A DNA stretch of 64,000 nucleotides, from positions 496,001 through 560,000 of the forward strand of contig JAIUNV010000001.1 in NCBI GenBank assembly GCA_020161435.1. Reading direction: 5' to 3'. The notes beneath the pieces were generated by a model that saw nothing but the letters and a program-made list of their open reading frames with translations, was not told the origin of the DNA and made no database searches. Numbering within the stretch: position 1 is the first letter of the stretch; every line of letters begins with the position of its first letter. Source of the stretch: Bacteroidota bacterium (GTDB taxonomy: Bacteria; Bacteroidota; Bacteroidia; Chitinophagales; Chitinophagaceae). A program made the translations under genes and the position numbers. Below, in pieces: positions 2,669 through 31,191 of the stretch.

Positions 2669-3808
2669 TTACCGCACAAATGAACTCACAGTGTTTACGA
2701 AAACCGAATCAGCAATGTTCACCGCTTTTACAACTCCCGTTGGATCAATGAGCATTGTAAAAGGAACTTTTTCAATATCTAATTGGCGCAGCACTTTACT
2801 GTCCCAGTATTGCAAATCGCTGAGCTGAATGGCAGGTACAGAATCTTGTCGAATGGCTTCTATCCAGGAACTTCTTTCTTTATCGATGGATAAGCCTAAA
2901 AAAACGAGGTTCTTTTTGTACAATGCCGATTGTGTTTTGCGCAGTACAATGGCTTGTTTTCTGCTGCTACTATCCCACCCGGCCCATACATACGCCAACA
3001 CCCATTTGCCCCGCAGGCTACTCAGTGCAACTTGTTTGCCGCTGCTGTCGGGCAGTTGAATTTCTGGCGCAGGTTTGTTGAGCAAATGAGTGCCTGGTGC
3101 ATTGGCTGTTACCAATCGCTGCTCCAATAATTGCAGGCCGGGGTGCTGCGGATGCTTGTCCTGTGCTGTTTTCAGCAATTGCTGCCATTGGCTGCCGGGC
3201 AAAAAACGATGCGCCATGCCCAGCGCAAAATACTGTGCAGTTGCATTGGGTTCTTTGCCAATATAGCTGCTGAACAATTGTTGCAATGCAGTATAACGTT
3301 TATCACGTTGCTGCAGTGTTGCTGTACGCAAACTATCGTTTTGCTTGCCCGGTTTATCGGCCGCTATGGCTGCTGCTTCTGCGGTTTTCCATTCGGTATA
3401 TGCTTTTTCAAAACTGTTGTATAATGCTTGTATGCTACTGCTGGCAGGCGAGCCACTAACGCTGAATTGTTCAGGCTTTTTTGCATCTGCTACAATTTCA
3501 ATATCCGGTGCATCATTGATAAACAATAAGCCCGGCCCGTTGGAAATAAACAACTGGTACACCGATTCCTGACTCATGGGTGTGTGCAATCGAAAACGAC
3601 CGAGGCTGTCTATCAGATAGGCAGAATCAACCACAATTCTTTGTGCAGCGGCGTAGGGCAATTCGGCTAATAATATTTTACCACCGGTGGCATTGCTGAA
3701 TGTGCCCTTTACCACCAAATCGGTATTGGTACTTTGCTGACAGCTGTACATACCCAGTGCCAGCAATACAGCAGCAGCGCTTTGTTTGTATGAAAATTTG
3801 AATGGCAT
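2669..3808 (-). CDS. Thioredoxin-fold (TlpA/AhpC-like) lipoprotein with DUF4369-like N-domain, lacking the CxxC motif
   Basis: The start at 3808 gives a 379-residue protein with a clean lipoprotein signal (lipobox G-M-Y-S-C, Cys23); an upstream in-frame start would overlap gatB. Residues about 30-130 resemble the DUF4369 domain that precedes many periplasmic TlpA-type thioredoxins of Bacteroidota. Residues about 245-375 are thioredoxin-like, with the W-A-G-W turn and the cis-proline region (K-V-P-F-T) kept. Where catalytic W-C-x-x-C is expected, the protein reads W-D-S-S (278-281), so it should have no disulfide redox activity. It may be a structural or binding derivative of the family. Four genes on this strand from here to 7.2 kb are not obviously one operon. 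Confidence 0.8.
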   Translation of the reverse strand: MPFKFSYKQSAAAVLLALGMYSCQQSTNTDLVVKGTFSNATGGKILLAELPYAAAQRIVVDSAYLIDSLGRFRLHTPMSQESVYQLFISNGPGLLFINDAPDIEIVADAKKPEQFSVSGSPASSSIQALYNSFEKAYTEWKTAEAAAIAADKPGKQNDSLRTATLQQRDKRYTALQQLFSSYIGKEPNATAQYFALGMAHRFLPGSQWQQLLKTAQDKHPQHPGLQLLEQRLVTANAPGTHLLNKPAPEIQLPDSSGKQVALSSLRGKWVLAYVWAGWDSSSRKQAIVLRKTQSALYKKNLVFLGLSIDKERSSWIEAIRQDSVPAIQLSDLQYWDSKVLRQLDIEKVPFTMLIDPTGVVKAVNIADSVFVNTVSSFVR

Positions 3809-14736: not shown

Positions 14737-14902
14737 GAGTAAAAAGAAAGAGGCGCAAAGGTAACAACCGCCACCCGCAATTCCTCTTTAAATATTGTCA
14801 GCCTGGGAGGCTGTTGCTACTTGCAGCGGGTATTGTAGCTAAGCCATTCACACTCATTTAAATCAGCAACATCAATACCTTGCAAAAGGGAAGGGCTTTT
14901 AG

Positions 14903-15208
14903 CTACATGCCTGCAATGTAAGAGCCGCAGAGCAACGCCAGACCAATGTTTATTATGGTTTGTAGTACCATCCAGCGCAGCTCTTTTTTGGGCATGGTTT
15001 TGTGCATTTTGTATACACCAATGCCTGTTTCTATAATGATGGCAATGCTGGCAATACTAATAACCAATGGAATAAAAAACAGTTTTGTATCTCCTTCGAG
15101 CCGACGGATGGCCGAGTACAATATATAGGAGATCACCGTAACAACACTTACAGTACTACGAATGAGCTGCGTTTTTTGAGTGGTATTGAGTTGTTGAGTA
15201 TTATTCAT
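14903..15208 (-). CDS. Small membrane protein with three predicted helices, unknown function
   Basis: The ATG at 15208 gives 101 residues: a Gln/Thr-rich N-terminus, then hydrophobic segments at about 16-34, 43-66 and 79-100, with a charged loop (Y-K-M-H-K-T-M-P-K-K-E) between the second and third. I recognise no family. It starts 17 bases after the stop of the A+T-rich lipoprotein gene on the same strand, so the two probably form one transcript. Size and topology are those seen in small immunity-type or accessory membrane proteins, but that is only an analogy. Confidence 0.7.
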   Translation of the reverse strand: MNNTQQLNTTQKTQLIRSTVSVVTVISYILYSAIRRLEGDTKLFFIPLVISIASIAIIIETGIGVYKMHKTMPKKELRWMVLQTIINIGLALLCGSYIAGM

Positions 15209-15225
15209 ATTAAATAACTTGACCT

Positions 15226-15885
15226 TTAAAAACCTGCACTGGTAACACAATCAGTAAAATCCCAAATCATCCAAGCGATACCGACCCAACTTAAATATCT
15301 TTTTCCTACAATTTTTAAAATTTGTATTGCTTGCTTTGCTGTCAATAGAGCTTTGGTCTGAATAATGATGTCTTTGATTCCTGAAATTCCTAGTGCGAAA
15401 CCTATACAGCTTTGAACTACATCAGCAATATTTATACCATTTCCACTTGAAGCACTACTTGTGGGAATAACATCAGGTGAAAAGATCATTGATAGTTGAG
15501 TCTTCTGACCATCATCAAAATTAAGAATCATTTGTTTGTCATCATAGCTTAATTCATTCCAATCATTTGTATTCACAAGTTGGCTCAACATTTGTGAATA
15601 GATTTCGTTGCCATTTAATTGTAAAGGAAGTACAACTTCTTGAATGATCGAGTCAATCACTTCTTGGGAAGGCTGATTTGTCAAGTTATTCAAACGCAAA
15701 TCACCATTTTTAGAAGATTCGAAATTAATACTTTGATTAAGACTTTGTTTTATTGACTTGATTTTCTTGAAATCAAGGCCAAGAGTTTCAATTTTTAATT
15801 CTTGCTCATTTATGACAGTTTTATTACAAGACGAAAGTGATACAAAAGTGATAGCAAATAGCAGTATGAGGGTTGTGCTTTTCAT
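15226..15885 (-). CDS. A+T-rich lipoprotein with a hydrophobic two-cysteine C-terminal domain, unknown function
   Basis: This 219-residue protein starts with a lipoprotein signal (lipobox L-S-S-C, Cys20). The middle part is polar, Asn/Gln/Ser-rich and probably helical. After a small-residue linker (S-S-A-S-S-G-N-G, about 143-150) comes a hydrophobic domain (about 153-219) bracketed by Cys160 and Cys213, with F-A-L-G-I-S-G-I near its start and R-Y-L-S-W-V-G-I-A-W-M-I-W-D-F-T-D-C near its end. I recognise no family. The domain has the look of a membrane-active or membrane-inserting module. Codon use is visibly more A+T-rich than in neighbouring genes, suggesting transfer. Confidence 0.75.
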   Translation of the reverse strand: MKSTTLILLFAITFVSLSSCNKTVINEQELKIETLGLDFKKIKSIKQSLNQSINFESSKNGDLRLNNLTNQPSQEVIDSIIQEVVLPLQLNGNEIYSQMLSQLVNTNDWNELSYDDKQMILNFDDGQKTQLSMIFSPDVIPTSSASSGNGINIADVVQSCIGFALGISGIKDIIIQTKALLTAKQAIQILKIVGKRYLSWVGIAWMIWDFTDCVTSAGF

Positions 15886-15931
15886 AAAGATTTCTTTTGA
15901 CTTAGGTTAAATTAGATTCATTCTGTCCTGC

Positions 15932-15967
15932 ATTTAAAGCAGGTGTTTCAAAAAGTCTGCTTTAAAT
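15932..15967. repeat. Perfect inverted repeat with 11-base arms
   Basis: ATTTAAAGCAG (15932-15942) is complemented by CTGCTTTAAAT (15957-15967) around a 14-base loop, 47 bases upstream of the lipoprotein start. It could be an operator or an RNA hairpin. No T-run follows, so terminator function is doubtful. Confidence 0.6.
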
Positions 15968-16113
15968 CCCTTAGCAAACAAAGGGGTTTCCATTGTAGAA
16001 AATACGGGCCAAGTATTTTCAGGGCTGTATGTGTACTAACCACCCTCAACATGTAAGCATGCCACAGCACAAATATGAAGAGGTGCTTTGTAAAATTTGT
16101 AGGTTGCAGCCAA

Positions 16114-16167
16114 CTTGTCTGGAGGATGTCTCCTGTTTAGGGTACTTTGTCAGGAGGATATCTCCTG
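16114..16167. repeat. Tandem pair of 22-base repeats upstream of the XRE gene
   Basis: The unit YTTGTCWGGAGGATRTCTCCTG occurs at 16114-16135 and 16146-16167. Spacing is 32 bp start to start, about three helical turns. Each unit contains its own GGAG/CTCC inverted core. This looks like a pair of protein-binding sites. Confidence 0.6.
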
Positions 16168-16202
16168 AAATTCAACGGAAATAGGTGGATGGCTGTTTGG
16201 AA

Positions 16203-16218
16203 TTTGACAAATGTCAAA
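16203..16218. promoter_or_regulatory. Palindromic operator-like site upstream of the XRE gene
   Basis: TTTGACA (16203-16209) and TGTCAAA (16212-16218) are perfect arms separated by AA. Length and symmetry suit a dimeric helix-turn-helix regulator such as the XRE protein encoded 113 bases downstream. Confidence 0.5.
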
Positions 16219-16330
16219 AAATGTGATTGTCTGCGCTATTTTGTTGGTGGTAATAGTACCCCCCCCCCCTATTTTTACAGTAGGGCATTTAATGCTATGT
16301 ATTATTTGATGTACCCACACACCTTGAACC

Positions 16331-16558
16331 ATGTACAATAAGAAAGAAGTAGAGAAAGCCATTGGCCATACCATGAAGCGCATTCGCTTGGAACATCAAT
16401 TGAAACGGGATTTTGTGGCTACGCAAATGGGTATTTCCATGGCACTATATGCCAAGCTCGAACAAGGTGATGTATCCATCAAATATTCACACGTAATCCT
16501 TTTTTGCCATACAGTTGGCGTCGATTGTCAATATTTTCAACATCGTTTGGTTACCTGA
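16331..16558 (+). CDS. XRE-family helix-turn-helix transcriptional regulator
   Basis: This 75-residue protein is almost entirely one Cro/C1-type HTH domain: I-R-L-E-H-Q-L-K-R-D-F-V-A-T-Q-M-G-I-S, then the recognition helix region S-M-A-L-Y-A-K-L-E-Q-G and D-V-S-I-K-Y-S-H-V-I. The C-terminus (C-H-T-V-G-V-D-C-Q-Y-F) has two cysteines. It is divergent from the lipoprotein/membrane-protein pair. The intervening palindrome and tandem repeats suggest it regulates itself and possibly that pair. Confidence 0.88.
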   Translation: MYNKKEVEKAIGHTMKRIRLEHQLKRDFVATQMGISMALYAKLEQGDVSIKYSHVILFCHTVGVDCQYFQHRLVT

Positions 16559-16614
16559 AAAAAAGCAGTTGACTGTTTCAATATTTACTTCACCGGCAGT
16601 TTGATATTAACGCA

Positions 16615-16652
16615 CAAACGCCATAGTACAATCTCTTGTACAACGGCGTTTG
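16615..16652. repeat. Long imperfect hairpin between the XRE and FMN-reductase genes
   Basis: CAAACGCC/GGCGTTTG (16615-16622, 16645-16652) encloses a second stem GTACAA/TTGTAC (16626-16631, 16636-16641) with a TCTC loop. It lies between converging genes. It has no clear T-run on either side, so it may be a weak terminator or a structured 3' end. Confidence 0.45.
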
Positions 16653-30597: not shown

Positions 30598-31191
30598 ATG
30601 ATGAAACAAGTAGTACTTGCCATTTGCCTGCTTATAGGTGTACAAGTATTTGCACAGGTACAATTTGGTGTAAAAGCCGGGGGCAATATTGCTACCACAA
30701 AGGATCTGATTGCTTTTCCGAAAAATCGGGTGGGTTGGTATGGTGGTTTGACAATGGAATTACCAATTAATCGGTATTTCTTTTTTCAATCAGAAATGCT
30801 TTTTTCATCGAAAGGGTATAAAGTAGACCAGCAACTTGGAGCCGATAAAACTAGTATTCGGTTTAATTATATCAATATTCCTTTATTAATTGGGTATCGT
30901 TTCGAGAAGAACAGCTCAATACTGTTGGGTACAGAACTGGGTTATTTAGCAGGTGCTCGATTGCTTATGGGTAAAGAAAATAATCTGGATGTAGGAAAGC
31001 ATTATCCTGCCAAGTTTGATATTGCTGCAAGTATAGGATTGCAACATCAGTTCTTAAAAAACTTATATGTGGAAGTTAGGTACAATTATGGTTTCAATAT
31101 GCTGTATTCTGTTGATGCTATCGGGCAACGACATTCAGATTCAAGAGGTGCAAACAGGGTTTTTCAAGTAGGGTTGAACTATTTGTTATAG
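30598..31191 (+). CDS. Outer-membrane beta-barrel protein (porin-like, PF13568 type)
   Basis: This 197-residue protein has a signal peptide (to F-A-Q, about residue 20) and then V-Q-F-G-V-K-A-G-G-N-I-A. Amphipathic strands follow, and it ends in V-F-Q-V-G-L-N-Y-L-L. The pattern is the small eight-stranded OMP barrel common in Bacteroidota. There are two adjacent ATGs at the start. Base composition is more A+T-rich than the flanking genes. The role is unknown; such proteins are often envelope or adhesion factors. Confidence 0.85.
   Translation: MMKQVVLAICLLIGVQVFAQVQFGVKAGGNIATTKDLIAFPKNRVGWYGGLTMELPINRYFFFQSEMLFSSKGYKVDQQLGADKTSIRFNYINIPLLIGYRFEKNSSILLGTELGYLAGARLLMGKENNLDVGKHYPAKFDIAASIGLQHQFLKNLYVEVRYNYGFNMLYSVDAIGQRHSDSRGANRVFQVGLNYLL

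Follow-up and report, generated by a model that had tools for sequence, protein, structure and literature searches.

Several described systems pair a toxin acting on the bacterial envelope with a small protein that protects the producer. In Bacteroidota, BcpT is a surface lipoprotein that is cut to free its C-terminal toxin, and a small immunity gene lies just downstream (PMC9308784). The CDI ionophores are helical bundles accompanied by hydrophobic immunity proteins of 72-100 aa (PMC11630599), and the circular and leaderless bacteriocins adopt a saposin-like fold and permeabilise the cytoplasmic membrane (PMC6072434, PMC6131525). Toxin-with-immunity pairs are already known, and there is a real chance that the pair considered here, referred to as LP-MP, represents a new bacteriocin class. 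The pair was recognised in the window, which denotes the entire stretch of 64,000 nucleotides that was analysed, and consists of a lipoprotein (LP) followed by a small membrane protein (MP). The genome is of the Chitinophagaceae type within Bacteroidota, the family being deduced from relatives such as Sediminibacterium and Niabella. The first-pass annotation had read the pair as a bacteriocin-like or antagonism protein with an immunity partner. The interpretation as an antagonism toxin with a cognate immunity protein, to which a probability of about 0.62 is assigned, is an inference, though one well supported by the comparisons described below.

The LP-MP genes and the divergent regulator

The LP gene, encoding a putative toxin carrier together with a putative toxin domain, occupies 15226..15885 on the minus strand as an open reading frame of 219 aa with homologues elsewhere in Bacteroidota. 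Direct reading of the sequence identifies a signal peptide with a lipobox (LSSC, Cys20; 15826..15885, minus strand), a SpII lipoprotein signal as in the BcpT family, and most LP relatives also contain a lipobox-like site. A Ser/Gly linker (residues ~141-153; 15427..15465, minus strand) is devoid of Arg and Lys and falls in a region of low model confidence, and the stretch PTSSASSGNG precedes the hydrophobic C-terminal region. This region, termed domain D (residues 150-219; 15229..15438, minus strand), is supported by the profile A8 and by modelling, and contains Cys160 and Cys213. The first-pass annotation had described precisely such a hydrophobic end set off by a Ser/Gly linker and bracketed by these two cysteines, with RYLSWVG at residues 196-202, and the translation agrees with it on each point.

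The MP gene, a putative immunity gene of 101 aa, lies at 14903..15208 on the minus strand with its ATG at 15208, and the spacing of 17 bases noted earlier between the LP stop and the MP start corresponds to 15209-15225. MP has no lipobox, carries 10 Lys/Arg against 4 Asp/Glu, and appears from its sequence to be a multi-segment membrane protein, for which hydropathy alone predicts two to three hydrophobic segments, two of them clear in a simple scan. The earlier expectation of a small membrane protein downstream of LP is thus borne out, whereas its description as a three-helix protein fits some relatives rather than the MP of the window. The composition of the pair also differs from its surroundings, as had been remarked, with a GC content of 0.327 for LP and 0.408 for MP against 0.477 for the window, LP being the lowest among 55 non-overlapping window ORFs (median 0.486).

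Divergent from LP, as previously annotated, is a gene for an XRE/Cro-type regulator of 75 aa (16331..16558, plus strand; HTH_3 PF01381, E 6.1e-5). The intergenic gap between LP and XRE contains two dyads read from the sequence, namely a perfect one, TCAGGAG-GATAT-CTCCTGA (16150..16168), which is a candidate XRE operator, and an imperfect one, TCTGGAG-GATGT-CTCCTGT (16118..16136), whose centre lies 32 bp from that of the former. The 15-bp dyad core GGAGGATRTCTCCTG occurs in the 4.19-Mb genome only at these two dyads (the other copy at 16121), and its chance expectation in the window, with up to two mismatches allowed, is 0.02. The two dyads are probably operators of XRE, through which the regulator would repress LP-MP.

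Searches of LP, MP and D against Pfam, NCBIfam, PADLOC, PHROGs and PDB sequences gave no usable match, including none for LP and MP among the PADLOC anti-phage defence models, and plasmids, phages and viral contigs searched with the window query likewise gave none. A weak similarity of MP to Cation_efflux (E 0.005, below the cut-off) was taken as a hydrophobic chance match. The full-length LP model was of low quality (pLDDT 55), with meaningless Foldseek matches. The model of D alone comprises four helices (4-16, 19-26, 34-48 and 50-67 in D numbering) at moderate confidence (pLDDT 68, pTM 0.52); its Foldseek search returned no match better than E 7, and its best VIA-align score (Z 5.6, SopB N-domain) is within the range for helical models without relatives. 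The open-access literature searched, which was limited, contained no description of the D/LP-MP family, and a search for fulvocin gave nothing useful.

Recurrence of domain D and of its membrane partners

Homologues of LP in other Bacteroidota share 30-36% identity with it. Among 99 relatives searched with LP, a single clear homologue emerged, from a congener (34% identity), and the membrane gene beside it is homologous to MP; a profile search of genome contigs returned eight loci. An MP homologue stands beside LP in five other genomes; beyond that congener, adjacent LP and family-A MP genes are found in G157, LEAD1, Sediminibacterium RGIG5603 and Amniculibacterium (Flavobacteriaceae). The joint occurrence of the two genes in other genomes, whose absence had been named as a refutation in the first-pass annotation, was found, and their recurrence together at ~30-36% identity argues that the pairing is beyond chance. 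Two matches of the first whole-protein search, L003 and L004, proved unrelated.

Profiles of D, starting with A3 and followed by A8, which was built from 22 sequences, identified 38 distinct members in Bacteroidota among the loci fetched. None of them matches Pfam, NCBIfam or PDB, in keeping with the first-pass statement that neither family was recognisable, and the match to a housekeeping family that had been named as its refutation did not appear. Exactly two cysteines, spaced 51-58 residues, are present in 22/22 aligned domains, and in most of these A-x-G is kept after the first cysteine and G-x-A...F-x-x-C before the second. The domains are hydrophobic (GRAVY 0.44-1.25), with a net charge from -3 to +5, which makes them less cationic than many bacteriocins. 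In most members D forms the protein end or stops within 9 residues of it. Four members (L021, L028, L078 and L082) share an extra C-terminal tail, possibly a further module, and the tail of L081 is different and unrelated, which means that the protein does not end with D in every member; the fragment L043 extends 35 residues past D. The shared tail covers ~65-130 residues with an FF..DQ.K..II.YL-like motif and is located in L021 at L021:2107-2334.

The proteins carrying D fall into at least five BLAST clusters without match to one another, obtained with composition correction, as uncorrected searches merged nearly all MPs and carriers. Wholly unrelated carriers were considered, but a faint P-L...G helix motif is common to several of them, and the apparently different N-termini may therefore reflect deep divergence. 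The distribution of D is patchy, with 19/394 genomes in the family, 6/92 in f44 and 2/194 in the order of G617. In L046:1030-2720 the D lipoprotein gene is split by a transposase gene, and in L040:1474-1707 D is encoded by a short ORF (77 aa) that includes hardly any carrier and represents a truncated gene or else D standing alone, here too with a 71-aa membrane ORF coming next.

The neighbourhood of D was evaluated by a crude partner rule, in which an ORF of 45-200 aa within 150 nt downstream was assessed by Kyte-Doolittle hydropathy without a gene caller, and which was applied identically to 169 control genes, that is, other genes in the window and in the fetched loci. An ORF with at least two predicted transmembrane segments follows 27/38 D genes compared with 10/169 controls (Fisher P 4e-17); with at least one segment, the counts are 32/38 and 30/169 (Fisher P 1e-14). 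The presence of a partner did not enter the selection, since D members were gathered by the D sequence alone. Of the ten control matches, three come from the sister lipoprotein family described below, while L007 and L010 are MPs of the present family that stand alone; a smaller first control had given 27/38 for D genes and 2/50 for controls, and LP itself was among these two. The window gene at 30598-31191, flagged as preceding a transmembrane ORF, has an antisense ORF and a product that resembles an outer-membrane barrel, and has no part in the system. No membrane partner was detected by the rule for 6/38 D genes, three of which are broken or fragments, the others (L021, L079 and L081) being apparently intact. 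The first-pass annotation had proposed to check whether D recurs with different N-termini and always with a small membrane protein; it recurs with very different N-termini, perhaps by deep divergence, and nearly always with such a protein.

The MPs beside D range from 54 to 189 aa and are highly diverse in sequence, without a common motif. All six loci whose MPs belong to family A fall to the same side of a D-tree branch with support 96/94, and 0/500 label shuffles of the tree were as clustered, an association rather than a tested specificity, given that the tree has few columns and that vertical inheritance can produce the same pattern. MP homologues without a D gene within the fetched 3.2 kb were found in five genomes (G218, G134, G004, G227, and the window genome on contig C4), as expected for orphan immunity genes, although an MP standing alone in several genomes could also have an independent function. 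L008 encodes two MPs, its own from family A and another from family B (39.6% to L080), as if immunity genes had accumulated there.

A variable site and the competing explanations

MP, LP and XRE lie in a variable block of 1.84 kb (14797..16637), delimited by BLASTN against L083, between purF and a reductase gene. In the close relative G008, the flanks continue at 96-97% identity and purF is 97% identical at the DNA level, yet LP is absent: the similarity breaks off exactly at 14796 and starts again at 16638, with two other A+T-rich ORFs in the interval. G002 has the same kind of insert, and the ORFs of both (L083:167-1394 and L085:92-924; ~193-195 aa) have signal peptides and the look of outer-membrane barrels. 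In one congener, G003 (L087), the site is empty, with purF and the reductase gene ~114 bp apart, and in G005 it holds an unrelated 238-aa lipoprotein with a Cys/Gly-rich hydrophobic end and an 89-aa membrane protein. This lipoprotein has a second copy elsewhere in G005 and one in G006, each with a membrane ORF next to it. Such polymorphism indicates that small sets of genes for secreted proteins or lipoproteins are exchanged at the purF-reductase site, and the position of XRE inside the block that its gene moves with LP and MP. The second lipoprotein family (238-244 aa; L092:1501-2508, L094:477-1490, L093:1095-2103), Cys/Gly-rich and hydrophobic at its C-terminus, is followed by membrane ORFs of 88-122 aa and matches neither Pfam nor NCBIfam. 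In a congener, a 75-aa membrane ORF stands alone next to purF (L090, 225-532 bases after position 3380) and is unrelated by BLAST to the MPs of D loci.

On these observations, the following course of events may be envisaged. LP would leave the cytoplasm through Sec, receive its lipid at Cys20 and travel to the outer membrane on the common lipoprotein pathway (Lol), which needs no dedicated exporter; no dedicated transporter gene lies beside LP. In the periplasm, D would be oxidised and would fold compactly into four helices held together by a disulfide between Cys160 and Cys213, and would then be shown on the surface or freed through proteolysis within the flexible linker. The displayed or freed domain would reach sensitive relatives and permeabilise their cytoplasmic membrane, and MP in the producer inner membrane would block the cognate D. 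Support for the antagonism reading comes from the recurrence of D as the C-terminal part of secreted lipoproteins that have diverged strongly, the excess of membrane ORFs after D genes, the family-A MPs tracking one D clade, the MP-only copies and the extra MP in L008, the patchy occurrence, the polymorphism of the site, which is empty in one genome and holds a different lipoprotein-membrane protein pair in another, and the length, hydrophobicity and helices of D, which resemble those of membrane-active bacteriocins; BcpT and the CDI ionophores are precedents. Against it are the moderate model of D without a clear match to a solved fold, the three apparently intact D genes without a membrane partner, the members in which D is not terminal, the net charge of D, which is less cationic than that of many bacteriocins, and the MPs that stand alone in several genomes.

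The main rival is a self-acting defence or toxin-antitoxin module, in which D would depolarise the membrane of its own cell upon infection, with MP as the antitoxin and XRE as the regulator, a suicide or phage-exclusion device. The dedicated divergent XRE with its two unique dyads, the gene order of toxin then partner, the patchy spread and the proximity of some D loci to Fic/Doc- or nucleotidyltransferase-like genes would all suit such a module, but toxin-antitoxin or abortive-infection modules are not usually built on an exported lipoprotein whose carrier is long, neither PADLOC and PHROGs nor plasmids, phages and viral contigs gave a match, and the orphan MPs better fit immunity against outsiders, which together render this explanation unlikely. 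Still less probable is a role of MP as an export, maturation or anchoring helper of LP, assisting the release of D or the membrane passage of LP; the tight downstream linkage and the tracking of D clades by MP types are equally expected from a helper, but the extreme diversity of MPs, their occurrence without any D gene, and L021, which has D and the tail with no MP found, speak against it. That the pair is an ordinary envelope lipoprotein with a membrane partner in a stress or housekeeping role is similarly improbable, for although lipoproteins are abundant in Bacteroidota and D has no visible catalytic motif and no family match either way, D is present in <5% of family genomes, is absent at the same site in close relatives, and diverges fast (30-36% in the closest set) within an A+T-rich block.

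Returning to antagonism, the broader proposal is that LP-MP exemplifies an undescribed, phylum-wide group of Bacteroidota bacteriocins in which fast-diverging lipid-anchored carriers deliver a disulfide-stapled D along the common lipoprotein pathway and are each paired with a small membrane immunity protein of their own, and the odds of this appear evenly balanced. Under that proposal, the second, unrelated lipoprotein-membrane protein pair at the purF-reductase site would pursue the strategy in parallel, as another branch. If true, the proposal would add a compact class of weapons in a phylum of soil, freshwater and gut in which few small bacteriocins are known, would account for unannotated pairs of lipoproteins and small membrane proteins, and would offer, in the orphan immunity genes, part of the explanation of which relatives resist. 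As the system consists of two short genes, it is directly testable.

Comparison with described systems

The length, hydrophobicity and predicted helices of D resemble those of membrane-active bacteriocins; D has no match among bacteriocin models (Pfam, NCBIfam) or solved bacteriocins (PDB sequences). A ~50-70-residue hydrophobic helical domain, predicted in D, and a small hydrophobic immunity protein, putatively MP, are shared with bacteriocins of the AS-48 and lacticin Q type, which differ in having neither cysteines nor a lipoprotein carrier (PMC6131525, PMC6072434). The circular bacteriocins also need a DUF95 protein and an ABC transporter (PMC6131525, PMC6072434), which were not found in the LP cluster, where the neighbours are purF, the reductase gene and XRE; a disulfide-closed helical D would, if confirmed, be a linear counterpart to them. 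The glycine-zipper bacteriocin Cdz is comparable in being a Gram-negative system of hydrophobic envelope-acting peptides, an activity that is putative for D, with a small transmembrane immunity protein, but it comprises two peptides, uses type I secretion and involves no lipoprotein (PMC5380434).

The CDI ionophores similarly combine a hydrophobic C-terminal domain, a helical bundle to which the predicted helices of D may be compared, with a variable preceding part, and CdiI proteins, which are ~30% identical within groups, are small hydrophobic membrane proteins like MP (PMC11630599); the size, hydrophobicity and clade-matching of MP would fit such a polymorphic, cognate immunity protein. CdiA, however, delivers the ionophore toxins, which follow a VENN motif and have five helices (PMC11630599), whereas D has four predicted helices, two cysteines and a lipoprotein carrier, and no CdiA/CdiB two-partner secretion genes lie beside the 219-aa LP. 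BcpT/BcpI of Phocaeicola resembles LP-MP in its SpII lipoprotein with a variable N-part and a C-terminal toxin part, putative in LP, and in the small gene immediately downstream (PMC9308784). BcpT differs from LP in its 499 aa, its LTR cleavage sites and its 300-aa toxin part, and BcpI is itself a lipoprotein, in contrast to the multi-pass MP (PMC9308784); no sequence link between BcpT and LP is shown. In the BcpT family a C11 protease releases the toxic C-terminal fragment, and the linker of LP contains neither Arg nor Lys. LP-MP may accordingly be likened to the circular and leaderless bacteriocins, to the CDI ionophores and to BcpT, while being assigned here to none of them.
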